DNA from: a virus
IMG/VR virus record: IMGVR_UViG_3300017598_000124
Location: 1 to 44,938 of that record
DNA length: 44,938 bases
Reading direction: 5' to 3' (one strand)
Of the stretch, positions 6,925-42,988 are shown in pieces. The notes under the pieces were generated by a model. The model saw nothing but the letters and a program-made list of their open reading frames with translations, was not told where the DNA came from and ran no database searches. Each line of letters starts with the position of its first letter. Within the stretch, counting starts at the first letter, position 1. The position numbers and the translations under genes are program-made.

Positions 6925-6925
6925 G

Positions 6926-7382: not shown

Positions 7383-7388
7383 GCTAAG

Positions 7389-7765: not shown

Positions 7766-7768
7766 GCA

Positions 7769-7999
7769 GTGGACACCAGATGGCTCAAGGGCTACACTGA
7801 TACTGAACGTAGAAAGAAGATCGTCAAGGGACATAAACCAGCACTAGACGATCTAAGGAATGTCTTAGAACAACACCTCAAGAAGAAGGAAGCAGTTCGA
7901 GACTATAGCTCTCCCGGTTGGGAACATGAGCAAATAGCTGTCAACGAGTACAACCAAGCACTCGATGACTTAATCAAACTAATCACAATTAAGGAATAG
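7769..7999 (+). CDS. Conserved-looking small protein between portal and scaffold
   Basis: 76 residues with a GTG start (M-D-T-R-W-L-K-G), mixed charge and probable helices; residues 27-45 and 60-76 look amphipathic. No family is recognised. Its first 14 bases and its segment 7863-7890 are the source of both 70-bp repeats upstream, so it is the intact parent of two internally deleted copies. GTG lies three bases after the basic ORF, whose AAGAAGAGGAAG end supplies the ribosome site. Confidence 0.65.
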   Translation: MDTRWLKGYTDTERRKKIVKGHKPALDDLRNVLEQHLKKKEAVRDYSSPGWEHEQIAVNEYNQALDDLIKLITIKE

Positions 8000-8006
8000 G
8001 ATCACC

Positions 8007-8771
8007 ATGTCCTCCGTATTCGATCAAGACTCCACCACAAGTCAAACCAGTGACGACACTTCTAGTCAATCAGAGACCAACGATGACTACATTAAGAAGG
8101 TCGTAGAACTCAAAGGAGATCAGTGGAATGATCCCCAAGCTCTGGCTAAAGGGTACCTGAACGCTCAGACCCACATCCAAGAACTTGAGGAGAAGGCCAA
8201 GGTAGCTGAAGCTGACAAGAATAAGGCTGACTACCAAGCTGAAATCCTAGAACTCCTGAAGGGCAAGGCACAGGCTACCGACCCTAACGGCACTGAACTT
8301 AAAGGTAGCGTCACCGAGCAGAAGGCTGATACCTCAGTTGCTCCTGTAGGTGAAGAGGATATTAAAAGCCTTGTTTCTAAAGCTCTGGCAGACCGAGAAG
8401 CTACTTCTCTTGCTGAAGCTAACCAAGTCAAAGCTGACTCTATGATGGTTGATGCCTTCGGAACTGAAGCTCACAGCACTATGGACAAGCGTTCTAAAGA
8501 ACTTGGTATGTCTGTTGACCGCCTCAAGGATATCGCTCAAGAGTCCCCTGACGCTTTCATGGCCCTTATGGGTCAGAGTCCAGCTAAGGAGACTAACCAA
8601 GGTATCCGAGGGACAGTCAATACAACTGGCAACTTCACTAAAGGCCACGACCGGAATAGTAAGTACTACTTCGATCTCATGCGTAAAGATCCTAAAACGT
8701 ATGGTCGCCGTGAAGTCCAACAACAAATGCTGGAAGACAAGAAACGTCTTGGTTCCCGCTTCTTCACATAA
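8007..8771 (+). CDS. Capsid assembly scaffolding protein
   Basis: 254 residues, acidic, Gln- and Lys-rich and largely helical, with a Ser/Thr/Asp-rich N-terminus and a predicted coiled segment around E-L-E-E-K-A-K-V-A-E-A-D-K. Its position directly before the major capsid gene and its composition are typical of podoviral scaffolds, which guide procapsid assembly and then leave. The C-terminus (K-K-R-L-G-S-R-F-F) is basic, as expected for the coat-binding end. Confidence 0.85.
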   Translation: MSSVFDQDSTTSQTSDDTSSQSETNDDYIKKVVELKGDQWNDPQALAKGYLNAQTHIQELEEKAKVAEADKNKADYQAEILELLKGKAQATDPNGTELKGSVTEQKADTSVAPVGEEDIKSLVSKALADREATSLAEANQVKADSMMVDAFGTEAHSTMDKRSKELGMSVDRLKDIAQESPDAFMALMGQSPAKETNQGIRGTVNTTGNFTKGHDRNSKYYFDLMRKDPKTYGRREVQQQMLEDKKRLGSRFFT

Positions 8772-8790
8772 CTTAACTAGGAGAAAATAA

Positions 8791-9735
8791 ATGGCTACTG
8801 AAACGGTATCCAATAACAGTCTTCTGATCGACGCGGATATCTATTCCTCGTTTATCAAAGAAGCTCTGATGGACGAGCTGATCGCCATGCAATGGGTCGA
8901 TTGGCTGAATGACTTTAACCAAGGTGCGCATACATACCGTATCCCGTCGATTGGTGAAGCAGTTGTTGATGATTATGTCGAGGGTGAGGCGATTAAGTTC
9001 CGTCCGTTCGACAAAGGTGAGTTCACCATGACCATCGACAAGCATAAGACCTCGGGTCACTCGATCTCAGATATTGCGATGGAAGATGTTGACTATGCTA
9101 CTCAGCTGGTCTCTAAGATTCCTTCGTCTGAGACTCGTGCTATCCTGAAGCAAGTTGAAGGTGATATCTTCAAACTGCAAGGTTCGCAAACTGCTGCTGA
9201 CACCAACCTGATTAACGGTGAGAAACACCGCTATGTGGCAACTGGTACAAGCAATGTGATTGGTGTCGAGGACTTTGCTCGCGCTAACCTGTCACTCAAC
9301 AAAGCGAACGTCTCTTCGCGTAACCGTATTGCCGTGGTTGATCCCTCGGTTGAATACACCCTGTCTACCTTGACTAACTTGTCTAACGTATCGAACAACC
9401 CCATGTGGGATGGTGTGGTACGTGATGGTATGACTTCGGGTATGCGCTTCTCGATGAACGTCTATGGCTGGGATGTTTACGTCTCCAACTATCTGGACGA
9501 GATTGAGACTGAGACTCTGGAGACTGTAGACGTCTCTGGCTTTAAGGCTAACATGTTCTTCTCTGCTGATGGTGATGAGAATCCCTTCAAAGGTGCATGG
9601 GCACGTATGCCTCGCTTTAAATCTTGGCGGGATGAGGACCGTGAAGAGACTAAGTATGCTACTTCGAGCCGTTATGGTTTGAGCCTGTATCGTCCTGAGT
9701 CGCTGATCGTTATTCCTTCCAACCCATCTGTATAA
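8791..9735 (+). CDS. Major capsid protein
   Basis: 314 residues after a strong site (AGGAGAAAATAA then ATG). Gene order (portal, scaffold, this protein, decoration) and length fit an HK97-fold coat of a podovirus. Codon use differs from neighbours: Arg is almost always CGT and Leu often CTG, while TerL and portal use many AGA, AGG and CTA codons. This is the usual mark of a very highly expressed gene adapted to host tRNAs. No cleavage site or insertion domain is obvious. Confidence 0.9.
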   Translation: MATETVSNNSLLIDADIYSSFIKEALMDELIAMQWVDWLNDFNQGAHTYRIPSIGEAVVDDYVEGEAIKFRPFDKGEFTMTIDKHKTSGHSISDIAMEDVDYATQLVSKIPSSETRAILKQVEGDIFKLQGSQTAADTNLINGEKHRYVATGTSNVIGVEDFARANLSLNKANVSSRNRIAVVDPSVEYTLSTLTNLSNVSNNPMWDGVVRDGMTSGMRFSMNVYGWDVYVSNYLDEIETETLETVDVSGFKANMFFSADGDENPFKGAWARMPRFKSWRDEDREETKYATSSRYGLSLYRPESLIVIPSNPSV

Positions 9736-9747
9736 GGAGAATACAAA

Positions 9748-10215
9748 ATGGCTAACTGGACTAATGACGACGGTATGCTGGTTCAATTCGGCAACCAAGA
9801 TACGGCGGACCAAGGTCTTACCTCCGCTGTTACTCGTCGCGTTATCGTAGACATCACTGGTACGGACGTAGCTTCGTCTGCTCCTGTTCCCGGTGCTTAC
9901 GATCCTTCCATCCCGGCTGGTGCTTACATCACTAAAGCCTACATTATCTCGGAGACGACCTTTACTTCAGGTGGCGCTGCTACTCTGACTGTTGGTCTTC
10001 AAGAGTCTGATGGTACTGCAATTGATGCCGATGGTATTGATGCTGCAATCGCTATCGCGGCTCTTACCGCAGGAGATGTAGTCCTCTGTGATGGTGCTCT
10101 AGCAGGCGGTGTCCTGACTGTGGGCTCCGAGGATGCTTATGTGTCGATGCTCTACGGTACTGCTGCCTACACGGCAGGAGCTGCCAAGCTTGTCATCGAG
10201 TACATCGAAGTATAA
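9748..10215 (+). CDS. Putative capsid decoration or minor head protein
   Basis: 155 residues, Ala/Gly/Thr-rich and predicted mostly beta, with low charge. It follows the major capsid gene by 12 bases with its own AAGGAGAATACAAA site and shares its CGT-rich, high-expression codon use. Abundant small beta proteins directly after the coat gene are usually decoration proteins. I do not recognise a specific family; a head-fibre component is an alternative. Confidence 0.55.
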   Translation: MANWTNDDGMLVQFGNQDTADQGLTSAVTRRVIVDITGTDVASSAPVPGAYDPSIPAGAYITKAYIISETTFTSGGAATLTVGLQESDGTAIDADGIDAAIAIAALTAGDVVLCDGALAGGVLTVGSEDAYVSMLYGTAAYTAGAAKLVIEYIEV

Positions 10216-10225
10216 TAAACCAAAG

Positions 10226-10249
10226 GGAGAGGGCTTCAGGGTCCTCTCC
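10226..10249 (+). terminator. Hairpin after the capsid genes
   Basis: GGAGAGG (10226-10232) pairs with CCTCTCC (10243-10249) around a 10-base loop. No T-tract follows, so it is more likely a 3' stabiliser or partial terminator that raises capsid and decoration mRNA relative to tail mRNA. Confidence 0.4.
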
Positions 10250-10272
10250 TACACCCTTAGGAGGATAATACT

Positions 10273-10965
10273 TTGCCCACCATTCAACACTCAGTACTCG
10301 GTAGCGGAGAGCTCCATGAACCTAAAGGTGCTTCAGGTGCCTCCTCCAACGAGACTTATGTGTCCGATGGTGCAGGATCAGGTACTTGGAAAGAACCGGA
10401 ACCTAAAGGCATTAGCTCTGCCACTGACGGTCAAATCTACGAGGCTGACGGAGCTGGCTCAGGTAGCTGGGTCACAGCACAGTCTACAGGAGTAGAGGAT
10501 AAGACTAATTCAGGAGGTCAACTAGCTACTGTCTCAGGAGTACCTAAACTCCTAGAGATTGATGGTGTAGGATACAGCTATGAAGACTTCATTCCTAGTC
10601 GCACGTCAGTCTGGGACCTAGCCTCTAACGAGATGGACTTCGGTGCAGCTGGTTGGTTAGTCGGGGATACAGCGCAAATCCGTATTGGCTTCACAGTCGT
10701 TACAGCATCGAACAACGATAACTTTCTCTTTGGGGTTGACTTCGCTGTCGGAGGAGTAAACCCATTCACAGTGCAGGCTATCGACCTTTACGAGAAGAGT
10801 CCCGGTACACACACACATAGCGTGAGCTTCCCCTTCTTTATTGGCTCAACAGACGTCCTAGATTTCCCAGCTCAGATTACTGTCACCTCGGACAATAGCT
10901 CCAACACAGCTAAGTTAGAGGCTGTAACTGTCTTCCACTACCCTAAGATTCTAGTGAGGACTTAA
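10273..10965 (+). CDS. Putative head fibre / decoration protein with DGAGSG repeats
   Basis: 230 residues with a TTG start after TAGGAGG. The N-terminal part has two repeats of about 25 residues, each E-P-K-G then x-[TD]-Y-x-x-D-G-A-G-S-G-x-W, a pattern I associate with trimeric fibre and decoration proteins. The C-terminal 130 residues look like a beta-sandwich, perhaps receptor- or glycan-binding. It lies between the decoration protein and the tail tube genes, so a head-attached or collar fibre is the best guess. Confidence 0.5.
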   Translation: MPTIQHSVLGSGELHEPKGASGASSNETYVSDGAGSGTWKEPEPKGISSATDGQIYEADGAGSGSWVTAQSTGVEDKTNSGGQLATVSGVPKLLEIDGVGYSYEDFIPSRTSVWDLASNEMDFGAAGWLVGDTAQIRIGFTVVTASNNDNFLFGVDFAVGGVNPFTVQAIDLYEKSPGTHTHSVSFPFFIGSTDVLDFPAQITVTSDNSSNTAKLEAVTVFHYPKILVRT

Positions 10966-10966
10966 G

Positions 10967-11692
10967 ATGAAGAAGACACTACTCCAGATAGTTCAAAGTA
11001 TTTTAAGTGACATGGACTCAGAGGATGTTAATAGTCTCTCTGACTCTATCGAGGCACAACAGGTAGCTTCTATTGTCGAGGATACATACTTCAACATCAT
11101 AGCTACTAGGGATATCCCTGAGCACTATGAACTCTTGAAGCTTACAGCTGCTTCAGACTCAGCTTACCCTACTCACTTCCACTACCCTACTCAGACTAAG
11201 GAGGTTAGTAACGTATGGTATGAGGACACTGATGGCTCCTACAGAGAGATCACATGGTGTGAGCCTATGGACTTCCTCACCCGTACAGACTCAGCTGGAT
11301 CAGAGTATGATACAGTCCTAGACAAGAATGGGTCTACTAAACTCCGTATCCGCAATAACCAAGATCCTACGTACTACACATCCTTTGACGATAACTGGAT
11401 GGTCTTCAACTCTTATGATAGCTCAGTAGACTCAACACTTCAAGAGTCCAAGGTGAGAGCTTACGGTGTTGTCTACCCAACCTTCACACGTTCAGATGGT
11501 TTCATCCCTGACCTAGACAACACTATGTTCCCTTACCTGATTGCTGAATCTAAATCAGTGGCTATGTCCCTCCTTAAAGGACAGTCAGACCCTAAGATTG
11601 AACAGGCTGCTAGACGTCAGAAGTCCTATGTACAGAATGATATGTACAAAACTAAGAGAGCTAACAAGTGGTCTAATTATGGCAGAAAGTAA
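10967..11692 (+). CDS. Tail tubular protein A (T7 gp11-like gatekeeper)
   Basis: 241 residues. Length, position before the very large tail tube B gene, and the N-terminal helix (L-Q-I-V-Q-S-I-L-S-D-M) followed by V-E-D-T-Y-F-N-I-I match gp11-type adaptors, which sit below the portal. The segment T-F-T-R-S-D-G-F-I-P-D-L and the later M-S-L-L-K-G-Q-S-D-P-K-I-E are also typical. ATG follows the preceding stop by one base. Confidence 0.8.
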   Translation: MKKTLLQIVQSILSDMDSEDVNSLSDSIEAQQVASIVEDTYFNIIATRDIPEHYELLKLTAASDSAYPTHFHYPTQTKEVSNVWYEDTDGSYREITWCEPMDFLTRTDSAGSEYDTVLDKNGSTKLRIRNNQDPTYYTSFDDNWMVFNSYDSSVDSTLQESKVRAYGVVYPTFTRSDGFIPDLDNTMFPYLIAESKSVAMSLLKGQSDPKIEQAARRQKSYVQNDMYKTKRANKWSNYGRK

Positions 11693-32170: not shown

Positions 32171-33184
32171 TCAGTGAGTTTCTTTCCAATCTTTACCGAT
32201 TACATAGTCTCCTGCTAGGGGGCAGAAGAGATCAAACTTCTCCCCAGTTTCTTCTAGAGCCTTACACTTCAGCTCACCTAAACGTACCGCTTCCTCGTAT
32301 GTAGGGCACTCAGACTGCCACTCATCATGCACCATATCTACTTGTCTGAACCTGATGCCTTCATCCTTAGCTAACTGTCTCCATAATACATTGGCATGTT
32401 TCATAATCACAGCTTCACCATTCTGTAGGTACCCAGCTAACATGAGGTGTTGGCTTGAGCACATAACCTTACGACCATCTAGTCCGTAGAAGTATCCTCT
32501 TACAGCATCCCTAGGGATCATACTAGTCTTGATCTTCTTAAGTTCAGGGAGGCTGTCAAGGAAATTCTTCTCAGCTGTCTTAGCTTGGGCTACTGAGCAC
32601 TGGAGGATAGATGCAATCTTAGGGAGACCAGCACCTAGGAGCCACGCATAGATGAAAGTCTTCGAGTCATCCCTAGTCCTACAGATAGGACCTAAGGCTT
32701 GCTTGTTAAGGTTGTGGATGTCAGTCTCATCTTCCTTCTTACCTGACACAATAGCGTCACGATAGGCTTCTGACTGCATGTAGTGAGCTAGGATACGTAG
32801 TTGGATACCCTCAGCATCAGCACCTACAAGGTAATGATCAGTCTTGAAGAGAGCCCTAAGGTCAGCATCATACTTAGCCTTAACTTCTTCGACAGCCGAC
32901 CGTGGTTTACCTGAGAAGATAGAAGGAATGTTAGCTTGGTTAGGGGAGCTGTGAGACATACGTCCTGTCCATGCACCAATGTGCCAGAACTTACCATGTA
33001 TCCTACTGTCCTCTTGGACAGCCTGTAGCCACTCCTCAAGGCTGCTCCTGCGTCCTTCTAGGGTGAGCCACTTGGCAAGGTCCTTAGCAGCCTCAGGGGC
33101 GCTCTCAGGGAGTGTCTTAAGGTTCTCCTCTGAGCACTTCCATCCGTAGTGTTTGTAGTGATCAAGGTCTCTTGGTTTACCCAA
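32171..33184 (-). CDS. DNA polymerase family A, C-terminal (polymerase) fragment
   Basis: 337 residues holding all three polymerase motifs. Motif A is G-A-D-A-E-G-I-Q-L-R (Asp123), motif B R-D-D-S-K-T-F-I-Y-A-W-L-L-G-A-G (Lys175, Tyr179), motif C V-H-D-E (286-288). The exonuclease half is a separate gene at 36385-37254. Compared with T7 polymerase, the steric-gate Glu is Gln128 and Tyr530 is Leu183. The N-terminus begins in a linker region (K-P-R-D-L-D-H-Y). TTG start overlapping the upstream cassette gene; AGAATTCTT precedes it. Confidence 0.9.
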   Translation of the reverse strand: MGKPRDLDHYKHYGWKCSEENLKTLPESAPEAAKDLAKWLTLEGRRSSLEEWLQAVQEDSRIHGKFWHIGAWTGRMSHSSPNQANIPSIFSGKPRSAVEEVKAKYDADLRALFKTDHYLVGADAEGIQLRILAHYMQSEAYRDAIVSGKKEDETDIHNLNKQALGPICRTRDDSKTFIYAWLLGAGLPKIASILQCSVAQAKTAEKNFLDSLPELKKIKTSMIPRDAVRGYFYGLDGRKVMCSSQHLMLAGYLQNGEAVIMKHANVLWRQLAKDEGIRFRQVDMVHDEWQSECPTYEEAVRLGELKCKALEETGEKFDLFCPLAGDYVIGKDWKETH

Positions 33185-33380
33185 AGAATTCTCCCGGTAA
33201 TTTAAAGTCCATAGGATGATTCAACCACTTCTCAACTTTCTCTTCATACGCCCACTTAGCTTCCTTATCTTGAATGGAGAGCCACAGGGAGCCATACCCC
33301 GCCCCGTCTTGCATTGTTCCTTTCTCGTGGTTACAGAACACCCAGCCTTTATCTCTATATCGGTGTAGATGTTGTGTCAT
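33177..33380 (-). CDS. LPxEFLE cassette protein 13
   Basis: 67 residues from M-T-Q-H-L-H-R-Y; ATG overlaps the stop of cassette 12. Early strand R-Y-R-D-K-G-W-V-F-C-N, C-terminus F-K-L-P-G-E-F-F-G. Its end (GGAGAATTCTTTGGGTAA) contains the TTG start of the polymerase fragment, so it is directly coupled to it. The final Gly replaces the usual Glu, and the stop is TAA rather than TGA. Function unknown. Confidence 0.75.
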   Translation of the reverse strand: MTQHLHRYRDKGWVFCNHEKGTMQDGAGYGSLWLSIQDKEAKWAYEEKVEKWLNHPMDFKLPGEFFG

Positions 33381-33592
33381 TCTAAGAACTCCGCTGGTAG
33401 AGTAAGTTTGAACGCATCTCCCGTCGTATAAGGCCAGATACATCCCATCTTTAAGTCCCGAGAGAGGAGACTGGCGTGTGTGTAAATTCCTCGAAGACCA
33501 TCTGACAAGACATAATCTCCGTCACGTTCCTTGCTCTTTCGATAAAGTGACAGTCTTCCCTTTGTCTTCCGTATCTCTATAACTTCTACCAT
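33377..33592 (-). CDS. LPxEFLE cassette protein 12
   Basis: 71 residues. ATG 33592 is chosen because AGAGGAG lies nine bases upstream, the same junction layout as other family members. It overlaps the zinc-finger gene by 71 bases in another frame. Early strand S-L-Y-R-K-S-K, then D-G-D-Y-V-L-S-D-G, C-terminus L-T-L-P-A-E-F-L-E. The stop overlaps the next ATG (GAATGA). Confidence 0.75.
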   Translation of the reverse strand: MVEVIEIRKTKGRLSLYRKSKERDGDYVLSDGLRGIYTHASLLSRDLKMGCIWPYTTGDAFKLTLPAEFLE

Positions 33593-33719
33593 ATTCAAAG
33601 GACTCCTCTATCCATGCGTCTTCAGCTATTGTTTCTTTGATTGAGGCTGCACAACTAGAACAGTAGTAGTCGTCACCCCACTTAGCAGTCTTCTGTGCGT
33701 TACAACATTTACATCTCAT
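33522..33719 (-). CDS. Small zinc-ribbon protein inside the cassette cluster
   Basis: 65 residues with C-x-x-C (3-6) and C-x-x-C (20-23), a zinc ribbon. ATG 33719 overlaps the stop of cassette 11. About residue 42 it reads W-I-E-E-S-F-E-Y-G, and the bases there (GAGGAGTCCTTTGAATATGG) look like a degenerate cassette junction that also starts cassette 12. The ORF may once have ended there and now runs on 20 codons. Zinc binding suggests nucleic-acid or protein contact. Confidence 0.65.
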   Translation of the reverse strand: MRCKCCNAQKTAKWGDDYYCSSCAASIKETIAEDAWIEESFEYGRSYRDTEDKGKTVTLSKEQGT

Positions 33720-33928
33720 TCTAGGAACTCCTCGGGGATAAAGGATATACAACAGGTGACTCCTTTAAGGCTTCTATTTTCAACCCAACCTTGTATGTCC
33801 TTGCCAGTCCTTAAGTCTTTGAAGTAGCCTACACGAGACAGTTTAACGTAGACCCCATCATGGCCTTTGTTCCATATAAGGGTAGTCCCTGCTCCATAGT
33901 TCTCGTAGTCTTTCTCTCTCAGTTTCAT
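33716..33928 (-). CDS. LPxEFLE cassette protein 11
   Basis: 70 residues. Early segment T-T-L-I-W-N-K-G-H-D-G-V-Y-V, a central Q-G-W-V-E-N and C-terminus S-F-I-P-E-E-F-L-E. The stop overlaps the ATG of the zinc-ribbon gene, with GAGGAG in the E-E codons as its ribosome site. Function unknown. Confidence 0.78.
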   Translation of the reverse strand: MKLREKDYENYGAGTTLIWNKGHDGVYVKLSRVGYFKDLRTGKDIQGWVENRSLKGVTCCISFIPEEFLE

Positions 33929-34161
33929 TCGAAGAACTCATACGGCATGTAGAAACTTTTACTTCTGTCACCGTAGGCCAAGCTTGTGCCATTCTGAAAA
34001 GAATCTTTATTAAAGAAGGTCTTTCGCTTTGACATACTCAACCCACCGGACACACCGTAGGCTCTCTTCACGCTAATACATCCATCCTCTTTAATCACTC
34101 CAGCTCCGTTAGGTAGTTCCCGCCATGTGAGCCCCCCGCAGTACTCTTTATATTCCTTCAT
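33925..34161 (-). CDS. LPxEFLE cassette protein 10
   Basis: 78 residues, first gene after the primase-helicase, whose end supplies GAGGAGG. Early segment G-G-L-T-W-R-E, then several Gly and basic residues, C-terminus S-F-Y-M-P-Y-E-F-F-E. Here the residue before Glu is Tyr, so the ribosome site for the next gene is weak (ATGAG) although the peptide tail is kept. This favours selection on the protein, not only on the ribosome site. Confidence 0.78.
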   Translation of the reverse strand: MKEYKEYCGGLTWRELPNGAGVIKEDGCISVKRAYGVSGGLSMSKRKTFFNKDSFQNGTSLAYGDRSKSFYMPYEFFE

Positions 34162-34163
34162 CC

Positions 34164-35753
34164 TTAGTCTACCTCCTCTAGTGTAAATGTTTCAGGGTCA
34201 AAGATAACCTGACCAGCGTAACCAGTATACGATGTAGGTCTATTCTTAACTACTGTCAGTGTTGTAGTGTTCTTCACATCCTCGTCAGTAGACATCTTAT
34301 CCCTGCTTAGCTTGACAACAACATGTGCTCTCTTGCTGATCATACGTGAGTCTCTGACCTGACCATCATCATTCTCATGTGCAATGGTGATGATACCTAC
34401 GTTAAGCTCGGCAGACATCCTAGCTAGTTGGGAAGACATGTCCCTGAGTATAGGCTCAACCCCATCCTTAGCGTCAAGAGAGTAAGCCAAGTCTTGGATA
34501 GGCTCGAACATAATGTACTTACAGTCGCACACCTCAGCAAAGTACCTGACTCTATCCAAGATGAAGCTAGCATCAGCGTCAGTGTCAACACCAAACTGAT
34601 AGAAGTTACCATCAGCTGTCATCTCTTCGATAGCCTCTAGTACTTCTTCTTCAGGTGTCCCTCTGTAGGATGGGAGAAAGACTTGAGCTAAGTTACCCTT
34701 CTCATCAGGTTGGAACTCCGAGTCTTGGATAGTTACATTCTTCTTCAAGTGGTAAGATGCAATGCCTAGGAGGCCTCTCTTCTTAGTCTCTTCAAGGTGC
34801 ATAGTAGCGAAGGGGATAGTAGGATACTCAGACAAGAGGGTGTACTCCAGCTTCCTCATCAACTCAGTCTTACCGACACCCTCTGGCGCTTGGATAACTG
34901 TGAAGGCACCTTGAGCTATGCCACCTACTGAGTCATCAAAGTCCTTGATACCTGTCGGTACCATAGCGTAACCAGTGTCCCCTTTGATAATGTCCTTGAA
35001 CTCAGCGGGAGAGTTGAAGACACCTGAGGGTGTGAACTTAGTCTTAGTATTCCAGAAGGCAAACTTGAAGTCGTCCCCATCACCAGCCTGAAGGAACTCA
35101 TTAGCATCCTTGTGTTTAGTGAGAAGTACTCGGTAGGTCTTAGAAGGGAAAGCCTTATAGATCTTCTCCGCTGCCTTAGCCCCAGCTGGGTCATTCTCCA
35201 TACACAAGACAATATGATCGAAGGAGTCTAGGTAATCATGGCAGTTCTTAAGGAGATGTTTAGAGATACCAGCTGAAGGTAGACCAACAACAGGGATCTT
35301 ACCTTCAAGCATCTGATAGGCACTGGCTGTATCTTCTTCTCCCTCTACAATGACAATGAACTTGTGAGACCCAGCGTTGAACTTATCCATACCGAAGAGG
35401 TGGTCCCCTGTGAACCCTCTATTCTTGGTGAAGTCCTTGGGTAGGTATCGGTACTTGTCCTTGTGGGGATAAGGATAGACACGTCTAACCATCTTACCTT
35501 TGTCATCAAAGGAGGTGAGGATACCGTACTTCCTAGCAGCCCTAGGTTTAATACTCCGGTACTCAACACCTTCTCTGTCGTCTAGTTCAGGGTGCATGTA
35601 GCTACTCCCTCCTGTTTCTCTATTAGACCCACCACTCTTCTCGCATTGGTGACAGAAGAAACCTCCATCAGCCCACAAGGAGTAGCACTCATGTCCCTTG
35701 CAGTGAGGACAATCAAGGTGCGTCTTAATAGGGTCATCTGTTCTTGCATTCAT
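34164..35753 (-). CDS. Primase-helicase (T7 gp4-like)
   Basis: 529 residues joining primase and replicative helicase. Zinc motif C-P-H-C (residues 15-18) with C-x-x-C about 17 residues on; TOPRIM E-G-E-E-D (about 136) and M-E-N-D-P-A-G; RecA-like helicase Walker A A-P-E-G-V-G-K-T-E (about 288-296), followed by a Walker B-like I-M-F-E-P and the C-terminal I-I-T-I-A-H-E-N segment. It unwinds the fork and primes lagging-strand synthesis. It sits between the two halves of DNA polymerase with cassette genes on both sides. Confidence 0.93.
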   Translation of the reverse strand: MNARTDDPIKTHLDCPHCKGHECYSLWADGGFFCHQCEKSGGSNRETGGSSYMHPELDDREGVEYRSIKPRAARKYGILTSFDDKGKMVRRVYPYPHKDKYRYLPKDFTKNRGFTGDHLFGMDKFNAGSHKFIVIVEGEEDTASAYQMLEGKIPVVGLPSAGISKHLLKNCHDYLDSFDHIVLCMENDPAGAKAAEKIYKAFPSKTYRVLLTKHKDANEFLQAGDGDDFKFAFWNTKTKFTPSGVFNSPAEFKDIIKGDTGYAMVPTGIKDFDDSVGGIAQGAFTVIQAPEGVGKTELMRKLEYTLLSEYPTIPFATMHLEETKKRGLLGIASYHLKKNVTIQDSEFQPDEKGNLAQVFLPSYRGTPEEEVLEAIEEMTADGNFYQFGVDTDADASFILDRVRYFAEVCDCKYIMFEPIQDLAYSLDAKDGVEPILRDMSSQLARMSAELNVGIITIAHENDDGQVRDSRMISKRAHVVVKLSRDKMSTDEDVKNTTTLTVVKNRPTSYTGYAGQVIFDPETFTLEEVD

Positions 35754-35974
35754 CTGAAGAATCCTTCTGGTAATCTGAAAGAAAAAGACTCACCTTCAGC
35801 AGACTGAGGGACCCAAGCATGGAAAGACTCCTCAACTTCTGGTGCGTCAATAAGGTATACGGCTTCCTCTAATCCGAGGCGGCCTAAACCCTCTTGCATC
35901 CACTCTTCGTGGATATCAAGGAAGACCCAATCCCTAGACTGATCCCATTTATAAAGTGCCTTGCCCGTACTCAT
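35750..35974 (-). CDS. LPxEFLE cassette protein 9
   Basis: 74 residues. Early strand K-A-L-Y-K-W-D-Q-S-R-D-W-V-F-L-D, acidic middle, C-terminus F-R-L-P-E-G-F-F-R, the most divergent tail (E-G for x-E, final Arg). AGAAGGA in the tail serves the primase-helicase start, whose ATG overlaps this stop. Confidence 0.75.
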   Translation of the reverse strand: MSTGKALYKWDQSRDWVFLDIHEEWMQEGLGRLGLEEAVYLIDAPEVEESFHAWVPQSAEGESFSFRLPEGFFR

Positions 35975-36201
35975 TCTAAGAATTCTCCCGGTACCCTGAA
36001 CCTCAGGTTACCTTCTCTATGGTAGCCATTAACCTCTAAGATTCCTTTAAAAGTGCCACAAGGGTCGACACTGAACATATCCTCAAACCAGCCTTGTGTA
36101 CGAAAACCTTTTGTATAGCCAAAGATATTCCTTGACCACTCATCAGGTTTATTATAGTCATCACTTCTCCCTTGGTATAGTCCGGGCCTAAGCTCTGTCA
36201 T
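35971..36201 (-). CDS. LPxEFLE cassette protein 8
   Basis: 76 residues. Early strand P-G-L-Y-Q-G-R-S, a central T-Q-G-W-F-E-D-M-F, C-terminus L-R-F-R-V-P-G-E-F-L-E. ATG overlaps the stop of cassette 7 with AAGGAG upstream; its own stop overlaps cassette 9. Confidence 0.8.
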   Translation of the reverse strand: MTELRPGLYQGRSDDYNKPDEWSRNIFGYTKGFRTQGWFEDMFSVDPCGTFKGILEVNGYHREGNLRFRVPGEFLE

Positions 36202-36392
36202 TCTAAGAACTCCTTTGGTAGTAGGTAACTGCTAGGTTGACGATAGGACCAACCTGTACTTGTTAAATCACTATGTATACGAAGGTTGCCGACGACACGA
36301 GCGAAGCTATTCATAGTGATCACCCCTTGCCCCTCCCGGTATAGACCGCAACAGTCCTCAAAAGTCTTCATCAAATCAGAATTTCTAGGCAT
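36198..36392 (-). CDS. LPxEFLE cassette protein 7
   Basis: 64 residues from M-P-R-N-S-D-L. ATG lies inside the last codons of the polymerase exonuclease fragment, preceded by AAAGGAGG. Early strand C-G-L-Y-R-E-G-Q-G-V-I, then S-T-G-W-S-Y, C-terminus Y-L-L-P-K-E-F-L-E. This cassette marks the break in the DNA polymerase gene. Confidence 0.8.
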   Translation of the reverse strand: MPRNSDLMKTFEDCCGLYREGQGVITMNSFARVVGNLRIHSDLTSTGWSYRQPSSYLLPKEFLE

Positions 36393-37254
36393 ACGTACCT
36401 CCTTTACGTGCTTCTCTGATAGCCTTGATATGACCTTCTGTCTTCTCATGTGGGTTCCACCCAGCTTCCCATAGGGTATCAATCCTATCTTGAGGAGACC
36501 CCGGATTGAAATCTTTGTAGTCGTAGCACACTAACTCATCCCCTTCTATCTCAGTCTTAGGGTGCTCAGACAGAGCTGTTATGACATTGGAGAAGAGAGA
36601 ACCATCCTTCTTAGTACGATACTTAATGCGTTTAGACTCAACCAGCTTAGACCCGAAGGCTGCTCTAAAGGACACCTCAAGCTCCTCCTTCTCTTCCTTG
36701 ATCTGGTCAAGTAACTCCTTAGCTCTGTCAACATCAAACAAGAAACCATTACGCTGCATGTTAGAGCAGATAGCAGCCATCTCATGTTCAACCTTCAAGG
36801 CTTGTTCCCACTTAGGGTCCTTGATATACTTCCAGAAGTAGTTGACAATAGCTTCCTCAACGATAACGTCTTGGTCACAGTAGTCTCCCATCTCTTCAGT
36901 GTACTCATCCCAGCCTCCTGTGTAGTCTCCCTTGTATACTCTGAGGTACTCCCCTAACTCCTTGAGACTATGTGTCCTGAACTTAGAGTAGTTAACTGTA
37001 CGGCTCACTACGAAGGTGTCAATGATGCTCTCAGGCTTGATGTCTAGCCCTGTAAGCTTGTTGATGACAGGTAGGTCAGAGGACATACCATTATGGAACA
37101 CCCACTTCTCAGGTTCCTTGTCTAGTACAAAGTCCTTGAAGTAGCCCATGTCAGTGAACCTCTGCACCCCACCTTTGTTCAACTCCTTCAAGGAGATGCA
37201 GTGTATCTTACTCTCCCTGTCTCCATCCCATTCAGCATCAGCTACTAAGATCAT
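36385..37254 (-). CDS. DNA polymerase family A, N-terminal (3'-5' exonuclease) fragment
   Basis: 289 residues with the three exonuclease motifs: A-D-A-E-W-D (Exo I), F-H-N-G-M-S-S-D-L-P-V (Exo II) and Y-C-D-Q-D-V (Exo III). It runs through the region before the polymerase palm (L-W-E-A-G-W-N-P-H-E-K-T-E-G-H-I) and stops at A-R-K-G-G-T-Y-A, which holds the AAAGGAGG site for cassette 7. The rest of the enzyme is at 32171-33184. Together the parts give 626 residues, about full length for phage relatives, with all motifs present, so a two-subunit enzyme is likely rather than a dead gene. Confidence 0.92.
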   Translation of the reverse strand: MILVADAEWDGDRESKIHCISLKELNKGGVQRFTDMGYFKDFVLDKEPEKWVFHNGMSSDLPVINKLTGLDIKPESIIDTFVVSRTVNYSKFRTHSLKELGEYLRVYKGDYTGGWDEYTEEMGDYCDQDVIVEEAIVNYFWKYIKDPKWEQALKVEHEMAAICSNMQRNGFLFDVDRAKELLDQIKEEKEELEVSFRAAFGSKLVESKRIKYRTKKDGSLFSNVITALSEHPKTEIEGDELVCYDYKDFNPGSPQDRIDTLWEAGWNPHEKTEGHIKAIREARKGGTYA

Positions 37255-37490
37255 TCTAAGAACTCCTGCGGTATCAGCAAGTCAGCCCCTTTAAGTTTTC
37301 TATCGTCATCAAACCCCCTACTCCAAGGACGCCACATATCTTTAGTGAAGCGATCCAAGACTGTTTTGTAAGCGTTCTTGTATGAGACAGATCTACCCCC
37401 TCCTTCTGTAATACGGTCCTCCTTTCGTACGAAGATGCAGCTCTCTGCCTTGATTAGGCCGTCATGGGCCATTGCTGAGGGATACGACAT
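37251..37490 (-). CDS. LPxEFLE cassette protein 6
   Basis: 79 residues, starting four bases after the CobT-like gene with AGAGGTGAGAAG as ribosome site. Early segment S-C-I-F-V-R-K-E-D, middle R-P-W-S-R-G-F-D, C-terminus D-L-L-I-P-Q-E-F-L-E. Its CAGGAG and overlapping GAATGA drive the start of the exonuclease fragment. Confidence 0.78.
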   Translation of the reverse strand: MSYPSAMAHDGLIKAESCIFVRKEDRITEGGGRSVSYKNAYKTVLDRFTKDMWRPWSRGFDDDRKLKGADLLIPQEFLE

Positions 37491-37494
37491 CTTC

Positions 37495-39321
37495 TCACCT
37501 CTTCACTTTCTTAGTCAACAACTGCGTAAGTTTATTGAACACACTCGATGACAGCTCATTAACATTCTGAACTACGACATGGTCCTTGTAGATCTTAGAC
37601 ACTGAGTTATCGCAGATCCCAATACCTACACACTCAACACCTTGTTTATTAGCTGTCTCAGTCGCATCCTTACAGAACTTGATAAGCTGCTGACGTGTTC
37701 CTCCCCCTGAGTTAGCTGGGTGGCCATCACTAAGGACGAACAGCACCTTACGTTCTTCAGGTCTCTTCTTCAGATCATTAACAGCATTGACAATGAAATC
37801 ATAATCAGAGTTGTTTCCTCCTACAGCCTCAGGGATAAGCTCGATAGAAGCCCTGCAAGTACGGAGGTTATCATCAAAGTCTTTGAAGAACAATGTGTCG
37901 AGAGGTTCAGGTCTATGGTATTCGTACCTGTCAACTTCATTAGGGTACCTCTTGTTGCAGAACCCTACCACATTGTACGCAATACTAGAGCCTTCCAAGC
38001 ATTCAGCCAGTGCAACAACACAGTCTCTGGCTACCTCAGCCCTGTCTCCATACATAGAGCCTGACAAGTCGACGAGGATAGTCACAGCTGTGTCTTCTTC
38101 CTCTCTATCAGTACGCTGCTTGAAGACTGAACGGTGCCCTGCGTAGGCTGCTACCAGTCTCTTGCTGTCCAACCTACCTACCTCACGACCAGTGTCCCAG
38201 TCTCTGCGCTGCTTAGCTAACAAGGCCCGCTTAAGCTTAGACTTCATGGTCATGATGTTGCCGCTAATAGAAGACTTACGGTTATCATAATCTGCATGGT
38301 TTGTCGAGTCAATAACTCTTTGTGTGTCACGGTCAGCGAAGGGTGGTGGATTCTTACCTCGGCGGTACTGAACATCCTTCTCAGTGGTGTACACTTTATA
38401 ACCACCACTAAGGCCCGGTCCTTCACCACCTACACAACCTGAGGCACCATCACCGGGTTCATTGAGAGCATCATCCATCTGCTCACCCTTAGCCCATACT
38501 GGTTCTCCCTCTCCTTCACCCTCTCCTTCCTTAGCCTCCAAAGATTTAGAAGCGAAAGGATTCTCACCATCCATCTGGCCTCGTTGGTACTCAGGGCTAT
38601 TCTCTCCTTCGTCCATACCTTCACCAGCTTGAGGATCAAAGTCTTCAGGGTTAGATTGAAGGTCAGGATCATCTTCCTTCAGGAGTTTGTATACACTCTT
38701 AGCTAAGGTGATAACCTCACCAGAGTTCTTACACTTAAGAGCCTCTTCGCACCACTTGTCAGCATGATCCTTCAAGTTATCTGGAAGTACATCCATCAGC
38801 TTCTCAAGGTTCTCACCCCCATAAGACTTACGTCCTACAGTTGTGATGCCTAGGCCAGCTGCTTGTACGCTCATCTTTTCGAGAGGGTCCTTACCCCCTA
38901 GCTTCTTACGTGTCTCCTCAAGGGCATCGTACTCTTTGCCTTTGACCAACTCAGTAACTTGAGTGATGTTCTTACGTGACCCAGCATAGTCATCCATCAC
39001 TCTCTCTTCCATCCAGATATCTTCAAGAGCATTGTGAAGATTCTTCAAGTCTTCCTTACCATTATGAAGACAACGATCATAGAACTCCATCACTCGTGGC
39101 ATATCAGAGTGACGAATGTGGCCAGCCTCATGGTCAACATAGCCACGCATAGCCCTCACTTGAGCTGGTGAAAGTTTCTTATCCAAAGGTAGGGCTGGGA
39201 GCATGATAGTCTTACCATCAGTACCCGCTTGATCCCCTTTGAATACTACATTGATACCATGTTGACGACCGAAGACAGCTGATGTGACAGCCATCTCGTG
39301 CATAAATTCATGCGCTTGCAT
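37495..39321 (-). CDS. cobT: CobT-like protein with VWA domain
   Basis: 608 residues. An N-terminal Y-V-D-H-E-A-G-H-I-R-H (HExxH at 64-68) is followed by a helical part, a long acidic Glu/Gly-rich linker (about 215-300) and a von Willebrand A domain with the MIDAS motif D-L-S-G-S (418-422). This layout matches phage relatives of the cobaltochelatase subunit CobT. It pairs with the AAA+ protein at 39731-41335. No CobN subunit is encoded, so it would need host CobN to insert cobalt, or it acts elsewhere. Start ATG follows AAGGAGTAAGACC. Confidence 0.85.
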   Translation of the reverse strand: MQAHEFMHEMAVTSAVFGRQHGINVVFKGDQAGTDGKTIMLPALPLDKKLSPAQVRAMRGYVDHEAGHIRHSDMPRVMEFYDRCLHNGKEDLKNLHNALEDIWMEERVMDDYAGSRKNITQVTELVKGKEYDALEETRKKLGGKDPLEKMSVQAAGLGITTVGRKSYGGENLEKLMDVLPDNLKDHADKWCEEALKCKNSGEVITLAKSVYKLLKEDDPDLQSNPEDFDPQAGEGMDEGENSPEYQRGQMDGENPFASKSLEAKEGEGEGEGEPVWAKGEQMDDALNEPGDGASGCVGGEGPGLSGGYKVYTTEKDVQYRRGKNPPPFADRDTQRVIDSTNHADYDNRKSSISGNIMTMKSKLKRALLAKQRRDWDTGREVGRLDSKRLVAAYAGHRSVFKQRTDREEEDTAVTILVDLSGSMYGDRAEVARDCVVALAECLEGSSIAYNVVGFCNKRYPNEVDRYEYHRPEPLDTLFFKDFDDNLRTCRASIELIPEAVGGNNSDYDFIVNAVNDLKKRPEERKVLFVLSDGHPANSGGGTRQQLIKFCKDATETANKQGVECVGIGICDNSVSKIYKDHVVVQNVNELSSSVFNKLTQLLTKKVKR

Positions 39322-39342
39322 GGTCTTACTCCTTGTTTGCTA

Positions 39343-39540
39343 TTACTCGAAGAAATCGCTAGGGATATACCCCAGCGCCTTCCTTTTGCTTGCATTAGGG
39401 TATGGTGGCACGGAGAAGTCCCTAGTCCCTAGTCGAAGATTAAAGAAAATATAAGGGTCCTTAGTGTTGCAGATAGGGGTACCTGACCGGGACAAGTAGA
39501 AGTGCCCCGGTGGATAAGGTTTGTCAGGGTCGTACCTCAT
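39343..39540 (-). CDS. LPxEFLE cassette protein 5
   Basis: 65 residues. Early segment G-H-F-Y-L-S-R-S-G-T-P, C-terminus G-Y-I-P-S-D-F-F-E with Asp for Glu. It ends in TAA, not TGA, and the next gene (CobT-like) has its own separate AAGGAG 15-20 bases later. So here the peptide tail persists without coupling, which points to a protein role for it. Confidence 0.72.
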   Translation of the reverse strand: MRYDPDKPYPPGHFYLSRSGTPICNTKDPYIFFNLRLGTRDFSVPPYPNASKRKALGYIPSDFFE

Positions 39541-39734
39541 TTAACAAACTCCTCAGGTAGCCAGAACCTATCACCCTCTCCTTCTCGCATGTACTCCTCA
39601 AATCTTTCATCTTCCCAAGGTTCGGGGAACATGGGTTTAAAGTTATCCACCCAGTAGTTTGAATGTCCTTCAGAAAAGAGAAGGAAGAGATTATTGTATC
39701 TCTCCTTCTTATAGACCCCTTTAAGGTAGCTCAT
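39537..39734 (-). CDS. LPxEFLE cassette protein 4
   Basis: 65 residues. ATG overlaps the stop of the CobS-like gene (AAATGA). Early strand K-G-V-Y-K-K-E-R, then L-F-L-L-F-S-E-G, C-terminus F-W-L-P-E-E-F-V-K. GAGGAG in the tail serves cassette 5, whose ATG overlaps this stop. Confidence 0.75.
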   Translation of the reverse strand: MSYLKGVYKKERYNNLFLLFSEGHSNYWVDNFKPMFPEPWEDERFEEYMREGEGDRFWLPEEFVK

Positions 39735-41335
39735 TTGATCACACGGTCAGCGATACCTTTCAGGACACTACGTTCATCCTTGTTAGCTTTGTCCAAGACT
39801 ACCATCTTGAAGGCAGTGTTAGTGTCACCAAGCATGACAGTAGCCTCAGCAAAGGCTAGCATACCACGAGGGGAGATAGGTTGCAAGATGTCTCCATTCT
39901 CAAAGGCTGCAAGATGTTCATCGACATACTTACCGATGACCTTAGCGTCAGCTTCTTTGAGTGCTGGTACTACACGCTTGACAAGACTACGACGTTCCTT
40001 GTCAGTCAGGTAGTCAACCTTCAACCATACTGTGAAGCGATCCAAGAGGGCGAGAGATTGAGGACGAGCACCTTGGTACATACCTTCTTCGTCACCTTGC
40101 CCAACAGTGTTACCTGTTGCAAACATACGCATCATAGGATGAGGTTTAACAAGACGATCACCATCTTCAGTGATACGTAGACCGTTACCCTCCAAAGCAG
40201 CTTGCATTACGTAAGCTACATCAGGCCGAACAAAGTCAATCTCGTCGCAGCAAAGGATACAAGGAGCTGACATAGCACGAGGCAGCATACCGTCAACAAA
40301 CTCAGAGACTGTCCGACCGTCAGTGTCCACCTTTAAGGTATCACGACCGATCAGATCCATACGAGAGATCTCACTGTCGAAGTTGACACGTACAAAGGGG
40401 TAGCCCAGATGTGCGGCCACCTGTTCAATGAGTGTCGTCTTACCTGAACCAGTATGTCCTTGCAGGTAGGCACGCTTGTTGGTTACGATAGAGTAGATGA
40501 CACGGATCAGGTAGTCAGGACGGAAGATGTAGTGTTTGTCAATCTTAGGTACATCAGGGTGTACACCATCCCACTCCCATACTGGTACCTCAAAGTCTTG
40601 AACCATGTCAACACCTTTGAACACTTCAGAAGCTTTCTTGTATGTGACCTTACCATCAGGCACCTCACCTGTCCCTTCGATCTCAAAGTCCATAGCTGGC
40701 ATAGACAAGGCTTTAGCTGCTGCATCACGAAGTTCTTGAGATAGACGAGCAACCTCTTTAATCTCCTCCCCTAGTTTGTTAACAGCATCTCGCTCATGAA
40801 GGGTTGCCTCTTGAGACTTACGAGTAGCATCACCAAGAGCATCAAGGATAGTGTCAATCTCAGGGAGATCAGAACCAGCAAGCAGGCTATCAATAGCTGT
40901 CTTCGATGGGCCATCAGGGATAGTCAGCTCACCCAAAGATGATTCAACTTTCTTGATAGCCCCAGCCTCAGTGATAATACCTTGAGCCTTACGCCAGAAG
41001 TCAACAGTTTCTTCTGAAGCACCTCGGACAAAAGGATACTTACCATTCTCAAGTTTATCTTCGTCCATCATAGGAAGGAGGTCATCAACTGTAAGCTCAT
41101 GAGCCATGAGACACACAAGCTCCCCAAAGAAGAAGCCTTGGAGAGACTTGTACAGGGTATCACCAGTCTTTGCAGTGAAGTCCTTCTCTCGACCTAACGC
41201 TTGGACATACCGTTTGACTACATGAGTAGCTTTAGTACGATTGATCTCAACATGAGGGGTCAAACCCTCTTCAGCTGGATCCCATACTACATGGGAAGCG
41301 AACTCACGTTGATACTTATTCAGGATATCTCGCAT
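39731..41335 (-). CDS. cobS: CobS-like AAA+ ATPase (MoxR type)
   Basis: 534 residues: a helical N-terminal half, then an AAA+ module with Walker A G-H-T-G-S-G-K-T (293-300), Walker B C-I-L-C-C-D-E-I-D (359-367) and a sensor region F-A-T-G-N-T. Phage genes of this kind resemble the cobaltochelatase subunit CobS and MoxR ATPases, which act with a VWA partner; that partner is at 37495-39321, separated by two cassette genes. With a B12-dependent RNR in the same genome, help in cobalamin supply is plausible. A chaperone role on another substrate is the alternative. Confidence 0.85.
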   Translation of the reverse strand: MRDILNKYQREFASHVVWDPAEEGLTPHVEINRTKATHVVKRYVQALGREKDFTAKTGDTLYKSLQGFFFGELVCLMAHELTVDDLLPMMDEDKLENGKYPFVRGASEETVDFWRKAQGIITEAGAIKKVESSLGELTIPDGPSKTAIDSLLAGSDLPEIDTILDALGDATRKSQEATLHERDAVNKLGEEIKEVARLSQELRDAAAKALSMPAMDFEIEGTGEVPDGKVTYKKASEVFKGVDMVQDFEVPVWEWDGVHPDVPKIDKHYIFRPDYLIRVIYSIVTNKRAYLQGHTGSGKTTLIEQVAAHLGYPFVRVNFDSEISRMDLIGRDTLKVDTDGRTVSEFVDGMLPRAMSAPCILCCDEIDFVRPDVAYVMQAALEGNGLRITEDGDRLVKPHPMMRMFATGNTVGQGDEEGMYQGARPQSLALLDRFTVWLKVDYLTDKERRSLVKRVVPALKEADAKVIGKYVDEHLAAFENGDILQPISPRGMLAFAEATVMLGDTNTAFKMVVLDKANKDERSVLKGIADRVIK

Positions 41336-41583
41336 TATTCTTCGTCCTTTTGAGAAGGGGTCAAGTTAAAACCCATAGTGTTGCTGTTGTCATCAGAGTC
41401 TTGAGGCTGTTGCACCATCATCTGTTGTTGCTGCGATACAAGCTGCTGTTGGATAGCTTCAGTAGCCTCGACCACGCCCAGCTTATAGTAACTAAGCTTA
41501 GTTCTGTTCCTTTGATAGCTGCCAATGATGTACCCTAAGCAGAATACAGATAAGAAGACAGCCCATGATTCAAAGCCTGTCAT
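41335..41583 (-). CDS. Small membrane protein with Gln-rich tail
   Basis: 82 residues from M-T-G-F-E-S-W. One membrane segment (W-A-V-F-L-S-V-F-C-L-G-Y-I-I-G-S-Y, residues 6-22) and a cytoplasmic Gln-rich stretch likely to form a coiled coil. The start is chosen by overlap with the preceding gene; the stop overlaps the CobS-like start. Function unknown. Confidence 0.6.
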   Translation of the reverse strand: MTGFESWAVFLSVFCLGYIIGSYQRNRTKLSYYKLGVVEATEAIQQQLVSQQQQMMVQQPQDSDDNSNTMGFNLTPSQKDEE

Positions 41584-41764
41584 TTTGTTTCTCCAATCCT
41601 TCTTTGTAAGTTTCAGTATAATGCTCAGCAAGGTACGCACCGATATCAAAGGGCCAACATACAGCATCAAAGAAAGAGGTGAGCCGCCCAGTCCCTTGAT
41701 TACGGGCTCTTATGTACATCCCCACAATTCCTCCAGCCCACAATAGGCTTATGAACGCCGTCAT
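41570..41764 (-). CDS. Small membrane protein
   Basis: 64 residues: an N-terminal membrane segment (A-F-I-S-L-L-W-A-G-G-I-V-G-M-Y-I) and an amphipathic C-terminal part. ATG overlaps the stop of the coiled-coil gene (ATGA), and it overlaps the next gene by 14 bases. Unknown function; it may act with the neighbouring membrane protein. Confidence 0.6.
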   Translation of the reverse strand: MTAFISLLWAGGIVGMYIRARNQGTGRLTSFFDAVCWPFDIGAYLAEHYTETYKEGLEKQNDRL

Positions 41765-41931
41765 TTGTTAATCCTTTCTCTTTCCATTGACCGACCAGCA
41801 TTAGCATCACGCCATGTCTTACCTGATCGTTCATCTTTCAGTTGCTCTTGAGCACGGGATAGTTGTCGTTTCAATAGAGCAATCTCACCTTCAAGTTCAG
41901 TCACTCTACGCTCTAGCATTTGTTGTTTCAT
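41761..41931 (-). CDS. Small coiled-coil protein
   Basis: 56 residues starting M-K-Q-Q-M-L-E-R-R-V. Heptad-like L/V spacing (V-T-E-L-E-G-E-I-A-L-L-K-R-Q-L) predicts a coiled coil across most of it. The stop overlaps the next ATG. It could oligomerise or bind a host protein; no family is recognised. Confidence 0.6.
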   Translation of the reverse strand: MKQQMLERRVTELEGEIALLKRQLSRAQEQLKDERSGKTWRDANAGRSMERERINK

Positions 41932-41932
41932 G

Positions 41933-42307
41933 TCACTCTCCTAACCAGTTAGCTACATACTCAACATCAGGGTTGAAGCCCCAAGCATTGAGGGTATCGA
42001 GCAGAGCATCAGTGTCAGGACCATTACCTTCACGAGTGCCTTGCTCAACCTCCTTGTAGGCCTGTCCCCTGATGATAGCACGAGCCAAGTGAAGATACCG
42101 TTGACATTGACGCACCTCCAGCCTCATGTTGTAGGTAAACAGACGACGTTCACCCCATGTCGGGTAGTTGCTAACCCCTCGTGCATTAGCTTGACGTTGA
42201 GCATCCCGGCACTTAACCTCTTGCTTACGTAGCTCACGCTGTTGCACAGAGTTAACGTTGTACTGTAGTTTCATCTCATAGAGCATTGATTTCATTCTCC
42301 TTTTCAT
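41933..42307 (-). CDS. Basic helical protein of unknown function
   Basis: 124 residues, Arg/Gln-rich in the first 60 and acidic at the end (N-P-D-V-E-Y-V-A-N-W-L-G-E). AAGGAG lies inside the ORF 10 bases before the ATG at 42286, so M-L-Y-E-M-K may be the true start; 42307 is the longest form, preceded by GAAGAGAAC. No domain is recognised. Confidence 0.6.
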   Translation of the reverse strand: MKRRMKSMLYEMKLQYNVNSVQQRELRKQEVKCRDAQRQANARGVSNYPTWGERRLFTYNMRLEVRQCQRYLHLARAIIRGQAYKEVEQGTREGNGPDTDALLDTLNAWGFNPDVEYVANWLGE

Positions 42308-42322
42308 GTTCTCTTCGGTTTG

Positions 42323-42529
42323 TCAATCAAAAAATTCCATTGGCAGTACGTGCTTCTTTAGCTGCCTTTTGAACCAGTCGGTATTCACGGTAGTCGTTCT
42401 CCAGTCAACCTGTACCAGTTTCAGCCATGTTACAAGCGAAGTGTTGCAGGAAGATAGTTTATCCTCAGGACAGTAGAAGATGAGGTCCTTTTGGTTATCC
42501 CTCCCCATGTGGTAAGTCTTCTCAGTCAT
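42323..42529 (-). CDS. LPxEFLE cassette protein 3
   Basis: 68 residues. Early T-Y-H-M-G-R-D ... L-I-F-Y-C, middle V-D-W-R-T, C-terminus H-V-L-P-M-E-F-F-D. ATG overlaps the stop of a 21-codon ORF. The tail is not used to start another gene at once; the next ATG is 16 bases away. Confidence 0.75.
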   Translation of the reverse strand: MTEKTYHMGRDNQKDLIFYCPEDKLSSCNTSLVTWLKLVQVDWRTTTVNTDWFKRQLKKHVLPMEFFD

Positions 42530-42591
42530 AGCTTATCCAATCTATCAGTCCAGTCATCGTGCGGGTCGTCAACGTATACTTTCTTGGTCAT
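42526..42591 (-). CDS. 21-residue micro-ORF between two cassettes
   Basis: M-T-K-K-V-Y-V-D-D-P-H-D-D-W ending D-K-L. Its ATG overlaps the stop of cassette 2 and its stop overlaps the ATG of cassette 3, the same coupling as full genes. It begins like a family member but lacks the tail. It may be a truncated cassette or simply a linker that keeps translation coupled. Confidence 0.45.
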   Translation of the reverse strand: MTKKVYVDDPHDDWTDRLDKL

Positions 42592-42788
42592 TCGAAGAAC
42601 TCCCTAGGAAGAGAATAAGAACAGTCGTACTCCCATGTACTGATGTCATACCAAGCACCAAACCAACCCCGGTCATGCAAAATGCGGTCAAATGTACCGA
42701 CAGGATTAAGGGGGTATACTTCTCTGCCGTTGCTGATATACGAACCTTCAGCATGAGGGTCCTTAACCAAACAAGTCCACTTAGTCAT
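42588..42788 (-). CDS. LPxEFLE cassette protein 2
   Basis: 66 residues from M-T-K-W-T-C-L-V-K. Middle I-L-H-D-R-G-W-F-G-A-W-Y-D, C-terminus Y-S-L-P-R-E-F-F-E. ATG overlaps the stop of cassette 1 with GGGAG nine bases upstream; the stop overlaps the micro-ORF start. Confidence 0.8.
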   Translation of the reverse strand: MTKWTCLVKDPHAEGSYISNGREVYPLNPVGTFDRILHDRGWFGAWYDISTWEYDCSYSLPREFFE

Positions 42789-42988
42789 TCGAAGAACTCC
42801 CATGGTAGGGCATAATCAAAACCTCTCTCCAGAATCTGATCAGTTAGGTCGAAGCCCCTGAACCTGAAAGAGTCTTTAATATGGGTGAAGAAGGTCTCAG
42901 TTTCCATAGAATCATAGTAGTCTACTCCATCAGAAGGACAAAGATCTCCTTCATCATCTCTCACCACACAAGTAGGGTACATCGACAT
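42785..42988 (-). CDS. LPxEFLE cassette protein 1
   Basis: 67 residues from M-S-M-Y-P-T-C. ATG 42988 is chosen because AAGGAG lies nine bases upstream in the text GTAAGGAGTTTAGTGATATG, which reads K-E-F-S-D in frame and looks like the tail of a lost cassette. C-terminus Y-A-L-P-W-E-F-F-E. It is the first family member in transcription order, after the tRNA. Confidence 0.78.
   Translation of the reverse strand: MSMYPTCVVRDDEGDLCPSDGVDYYDSMETETFFTHIKDSFRFRGFDLTDQILERGFDYALPWEFFE

Follow-up and report, generated by a model that had tools for sequence, protein, structure and literature searches.

Thirteen small early proteins of a cobavirus-like phage share a C-terminal tail, and related phages carry comparable sets with tail classes of their own

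Why should many otherwise unlike small proteins of one phage end in nearly the same few residues? The question is raised by the early region of IMG/VR virus record IMGVR_UViG_3300017598_000124, a marine-type phage analyzed here over its whole stretch of 44,938 bases (the window), which is a cobavirus-like podovirus by gene content and by its nearest annotated relative (PQ867845.1; Zobellviridae, Cobavirinae; helicase identity, 69%). Thirteen small open reading frames (ORFs), all on the minus strand, end in the consensus tail [LIVM]-P-x-[E/D]-F-[LF]-x (Table 1). A six-frame scan for [LIVMF]PxxF[LFVIM]x followed by a stop, in open frames of at least 50 codons, returned exactly 13 matches, all of them members of this set, against a chance expectation of 0.06 in randomized sequences with matching trinucleotide composition. 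The first-pass annotation of this DNA had located the same 13 ORFs, and its lists of ends and of tails are each right, but one is reversed relative to the other (LPWEFFE goes with the end at 42785 and LPGEFFG with that at 33177). Its description of the tail as exact was too strong, given that P and F are the sole invariant residues: D replaces E in the ORF ending at 39343, P-E-G-F replaces P-x-E-F in the one ending at 35750, and the final position varies among E, D, K, R, and G. Likewise, the early Gly-[LV]-Tyr and the Gly-Trp in the middle of the proteins are frequent rather than universal.

Forty members with the PxEF tail were pooled from the window and the loci L002 and L003, the three genomes that share this tail. 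The next start overlaps the stop by 1 to 5 nucleotides (nt) in 27 of the 40, and there is no overlap in the other 13. GGAG spans the x and E codons in 22 of the 27 overlapping members, usually at a distance of 8 nt from the ATG of the next gene, versus 2 of the 13 nonoverlapping ones (Fisher P = 1e-4). All 13 nonoverlapping members nevertheless retain P-x-[E/D]-F, and E or D occupies the acidic position in 39 of the 40. The Pro codon, located upstream of the ribosome site, has its first two bases invariant (40/40) and its third base free (A, 12; C, 4; T, 12; G, 12), so that all four Pro codons occur, while none of the 25 non-family genes in the same genomes that share 4 nt with the next start has a P..F tail. 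Since the tail is retained where there is no overlap and mostly no GGAG and is missing from overlapping non-family genes, selection acts on the tail peptide and not solely on the ribosome site, which bears out the earlier claim of selection on protein; where stop and start overlap, the tail codons double as the ribosome site of the next gene. In the window, the member at 39343..39540 has the tail codons AGC GAT, without GGAG, and nonetheless retains the peptide, and the ATG overlapping the stop of the member at 42588..42788 leads into a short frame only. Many downstream genes of two related loci, L095 and L096, begin within the tail codons.

About 250 loci were gathered by scans with helicase, CobS, and polB and were subjected to a blind test, in which their small ORFs were compared for recurrent C-terminal patterns. 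The test recovered L002 and L003 (PxEF; 16 and 11 members, respectively), L082/L094 (PxEYx), L152 (IPKEYx), L015/L183 (FPMEFLI type), L016/L092 (VPxEML), and L096 (GPxExxxW), with fainter signals in L095 (xCLVxW) and L025 (IPxxL), while L091 (PKEF followed by 0 to 10 residues), L187, and L197 were added through reading by eye. In L091, L187, and L197, the motif can be followed by extra residues, which shows that it need not abut the stop codon. The collected set comprised 119 proteins from 13 contigs, chosen by tail, so that chance members are possible in the weaker sets. A cross-table of tail classes was almost diagonal, each genome being nearly confined to its own class. In every carrier, the members flank or separate the genes CobS, CobT, polA, helicase, and polB, as single ORFs or a few at a time, and their place is in the early replication region rather than the structural arm. 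Related cobavirus-like phages thus hold sets like that of the window at corresponding places among the core genes, but with tail classes of their own. The DNA pattern of the tail junction gave only single matches besides the L003 contig, and close relatives with this exact tail look rare.

Pairwise matches between tail-free bodies were weak, with 11 pairs below an E value of 0.01 against one or two expected. A body profile built with one genome left out recognized held-out bodies both against small ORFs of relatives lacking CobS-CobT (area under the curve [AUC], 0.88; P = 8e-30) and against shuffled copies of the same bodies (AUC, 0.73; P = 3e-7), reaching L095 clearly, L091 weakly, and L096 against the decoys but not against the shuffles. 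The diverged paralogous family proposed initially is thereby borne out, and a profile does link the bodies. Body similarity was 22.6 within and 21.9 between genomes (z = 3.2), and the bodies do not track gene position, since positional orthologues of the window, L002, and L003 scored 22.7 versus 23.0 for other pairs. One pair, L187_1848 (tail MPLEFLT) and L025_7598 (tail IPWCLR), from lineages with 58% identical polB, gave a significant body match (z = 10) despite different tails. Taken together, the sequence comparisons indicate that the tail-free bodies form one very diverged family, with a weak common grammar across genomes and hardly any clustering by genome.

Known relatives of these bodies were not found. 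Pfam gave no match for the 13 window members, no credible match among 52 members, and no match for the members from L183, L203, and L088; PHROG and NCBIfam profiles gave solely single-member matches at E values of 0.01 or worse, and the PDB held no credible relative of the small proteins. Two AlphaFold models (predicted local distance difference test [pLDDT] scores, 66 and 61), of a confidence too low for assigning a fold, suggested two or three strands, then a helix, and at the C terminus a last strand or an extended segment that runs into the Pro turn; a Foldseek search with these two models found no fold (best PDB E value, 3.2). A likeness to small SH3/KOW beta domains was attractive by eye, including a length of 50 to 80 amino acids (aa), an early "xLY" strand, a mid-protein Gly-Trp, and a hydrophobic-Pro-x-x-aromatic end, with a KOW-like appearance in a few members (e.g., L183, "FKVGDKVIVQSDHGLICGRM"). 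However, an SH3 domain had no support from Pfam, PDB, Foldseek, or the low-confidence models, which suggest strands, a helix, and a final strand rather than a barrel.

Table 1 Tail-bearing ORFs and associated genes in the window, and a second small-protein family in related loci; member sizes assume the start that overlaps the preceding stop, wherever such a start exists
Feature	Tail	Size (aa)	Coordinates	Strand	Remarks
Member	LPWEFFE	67	42785..42988	-	Next ATG and stop share 4 nt
Member	LPREFFE	66	42588..42788	-	Next called ORF begins 58 nt downstream
Member	LPMEFFD	68	42323..42529	-	No overlap with next gene
CobS-like MoxR-type AAA+ ATPase			39731..41335	-	Pfam AAA_5, 1.4e-15; homologues in all long carrier genomes
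Member	LPEEFVK	65	39537..39734	-	Between CobS and CobT; AlphaFold pLDDT 66
Member	IPSDFFE	65	39343..39540	-	Between CobS and CobT; no overlap with next gene
CobT-like VWA protein			37495..39321	-	MIDAS DLSGS; Pfam CobT_C, 8e-21; CobT, 5.6e-11; VWA
Member	IPQEFLE	79	37251..37490	-	ORF and tail located
Member	LPKEFLE	64	36198..36392	-	ORF and tail located; size from shorter start
Member	VPGEFLE	76	35971..36201	-	ORF and tail located
Member	LPEGFFR	74	35750..35974	-	Overlaps helicase start
Member	MPYEFFE	78	33925..34161	-	ORF and tail located
Member	IPEEFLE	70	33716..33928	-	ORF and tail located
Member	LPAEFLE	71	33377..33592	-	ORF and tail located
Member	LPGEFFG	67	33177..33380	-	ORF and tail located; AlphaFold pLDDT 61
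"KGFVxFxxKxxG" family			L007 2804-3435 and 12155-12517; L192 1718-2020; L195 7679-7981

Two other features of the gene map deserve mention. The DNA polymerase is split over two genes (32171-33184 and 36385-37254, minus strand), between which the helicase and seven tail-bearing ORFs intervene. Near the helicase and polymerase genes, a small Cys-rich protein with an MRCxxC(D/N) start and a likely four-Cys zinc site (33522-33734, minus strand) is also encoded; it recurs in L002, L003, L015, L082, L096, L152, L188, and other loci, in carriers and non-carriers alike.

What, then, could the tail be for? Because one tail recurs on as many as 16 dissimilar proteins of a genome, changes in concert from genome to genome, and persists without gene overlap, we infer that the small proteins may be fast-evolving plug-in proteins whose shared C-terminal element docks onto some common partner, a reading to which we give an even chance. 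The body would be the fast-evolving part and probably the seat of each individual activity, while the C-terminal strand and the P-x-E-[F/Y/M] turn would form the common element, matched to something genome-specific; the tail class would then shift as a set between lineages, following that partner, and docking would gather many different small proteins on that one partner. The leading candidate for the partner, albeit a tentative one, is the phage's own CobS-CobT motor (a MoxR AAA+ protein plus a VWA protein), because it is encoded among the member genes and because its relatives CbbQ-CbbO bind clients through a metal ion-dependent adhesion site (MIDAS) and an acidic residue. In CbbQ-CbbO, the MIDAS of the VWA domain binds an acidic residue of the client, rubisco (PMC4660213). 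Like such MoxR AAA+/VWA machines with clients (CbbQ-CbbO, PMC4660213; NorQ-NorD, PMC9976466), the carriers encode CobS and a CobT with DxSxS, and most tails hold a conserved Glu; the differences are that the Glu is missing in some phage lineages and that the known clients have no common C-terminal tail. Developed fully, this would be a client system in which up to 16 interchangeable effectors per genome present a C-terminal key peculiar to that genome and recognized by the phage CobS-CobT motor, with key and reader changing together and the bodies diversifying freely, a picture that we regard as speculative.

The distribution of the two genes is consistent with such a link. Both the AAA+ domain of CobS (Pfam AAA_5) and the VWA domain of CobT with its MIDAS DxSxS were confirmed for the window genes, and the DxSxS was intact in all seven aligned CobT homologues. 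In a survey of 125 distinct contigs with the polymerase, each of the 11 that had CobS-CobT and were 17 kb or longer carried a set. By the blind threshold alone, 10 of 12 positive contigs passed; L025 lay just under the cut, and L184 (the same as L091) and L095 passed narrowly, with patterns weaker than the tails seen by eye. Four of 98 CobS-CobT-negative contigs also passed, namely, a further fragment of the L094 contig, two contigs with unrelated tails (L203 and L088), and one with an acidic pattern; thus, none of these four was a CobS-CobT-free carrier of a P-x-E-type set.

Several observations weigh against the docking reading or its CobS-CobT version. The similarity of tails within genomes (z = 19) is partly circular, as members were picked by tail. 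L202 (IMGVR_UViG_3300022200_007077) has CobT and no member in its 5-kb fragment, and the CobS-CobT lineages CRP-810, ICP2, and L097-L170 are without the set in the stretches read. Moreover, most CobS-CobT-negative contigs group together in the polB tree; phylogeny therefore confounds the link, which may reflect few evolutionary events, one or two rather than many. Finally, most tails of L095 and L025 do not have the acidic residue on which binding by a MIDAS would depend, so that the simple model of a MIDAS binding the tail Glu is weakened. The L202 fragment, with CobT, polA, helicase, and polB almost back to back and the Cys-rich gene alone between them, is also useful as a natural control.

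The main rival, which we consider a real if doubtful possibility, takes the tail as a structural part of a small fold, namely, its last beta strand and closing turn, retained through lineage-specific expansion of paralogues with diverged bodies and no common partner. A hydrophobic strand precedes the tail, each of the two models finishes in a strand or an extended segment and a short turn, bodies are slightly more alike within genomes, and the tail resembles the end of an SH3 domain ("GYIPSDFFE" versus "GYIPSNYV"). However, the tail class follows the genome, which body similarity barely does, and in the single clearly significant pair, homologous bodies of two lineages bear each lineage's own tail; the models on which the structural argument draws are of low confidence and returned no fold.

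The remaining rivals appear far less probable. A gene-junction cassette of ribosome site and start-stop overlap, copied or recombined between genes with the peptide incidental, would fit the GGAG spacing and the genes of L095 and L096 that begin inside the tail, but the nonoverlapping members, the Pro codon outside the ribosome site, and the tailless overlapping non-family genes make it very unlikely as the origin of the tail; it is refuted as a full explanation and stays as an added layer. A role of the tail in degradation, as a signal or protease site that shortens the life of early proteins, is similarly improbable: the motif is C-terminal in most members and an AAA+ machine is encoded alongside, but residues can follow the motif in three loci, and AAA+ machines of the CobS-CobT type are not known to feed a protease. 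We give the least credence to sorting into a compartment or virion. Encapsulin cargo is sorted by a short shared C-terminal peptide on otherwise unrelated proteins, a formal parallel, but the tail class of the phage sets varies by genome, their genes occupy the early replication region rather than the structural arm, and no link to a scaffold or nearby shell protein was found.

Shared tails also occur outside the P-x-E type. In Rhizobium phage RHph_I3_11 (L088; MN988510), thirteen small ORFs of 70 to 121 aa (7291-32676, plus strand), several of them KOW-like ("FKVGDRVxxx"), end in GD[TR][DEG][DE]DI and form a second, independent shared-tail set; this phage has amidoligase and ATP-grasp genes, and no CobS-CobT was detected in the 50 kb read. 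In L203 (IMGVR_UViG_3300025018_000022; 4981-11237, plus strand), the C termini of seven small KOW-like ORFs consist of an acidic stretch followed by L-[YF]-Y or a comparable sequence (DEDLYY, DEVLYY, EDLFY, and GEDLLY), and no CobS-CobT was seen in 21 kb. CobS-CobT-negative relatives hold another small paralogous family, of 100 to 120 aa with "KGFVxFxxKxxG," in the same early region.

In the open-access papers searched on cobaviruses, CobS-CobT, and shared C-terminal tails, no description of such a set was found. In being tiny, fast-evolving, closely packed, and near replication genes, the members resemble the early small-ORF arrays of lytic phages (T7, SPO1, and others), for which we know of no genome-wide common C-terminal signature. 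To our knowledge, the new element is thus a genome-specific common C-terminal tail on an otherwise known kind of early accessory ORF array. In the tail, selection on the protein and selection on translation meet in the same few codons. The early genes of phages are mostly very small orphans that give no hold on function, and a tail that can be cut off, or exchanged among members and among lineages, provides such a hold for dozens at a time; it also points to possible clients for the phage CobS-CobT genes, which are usually annotated as cobalamin genes.

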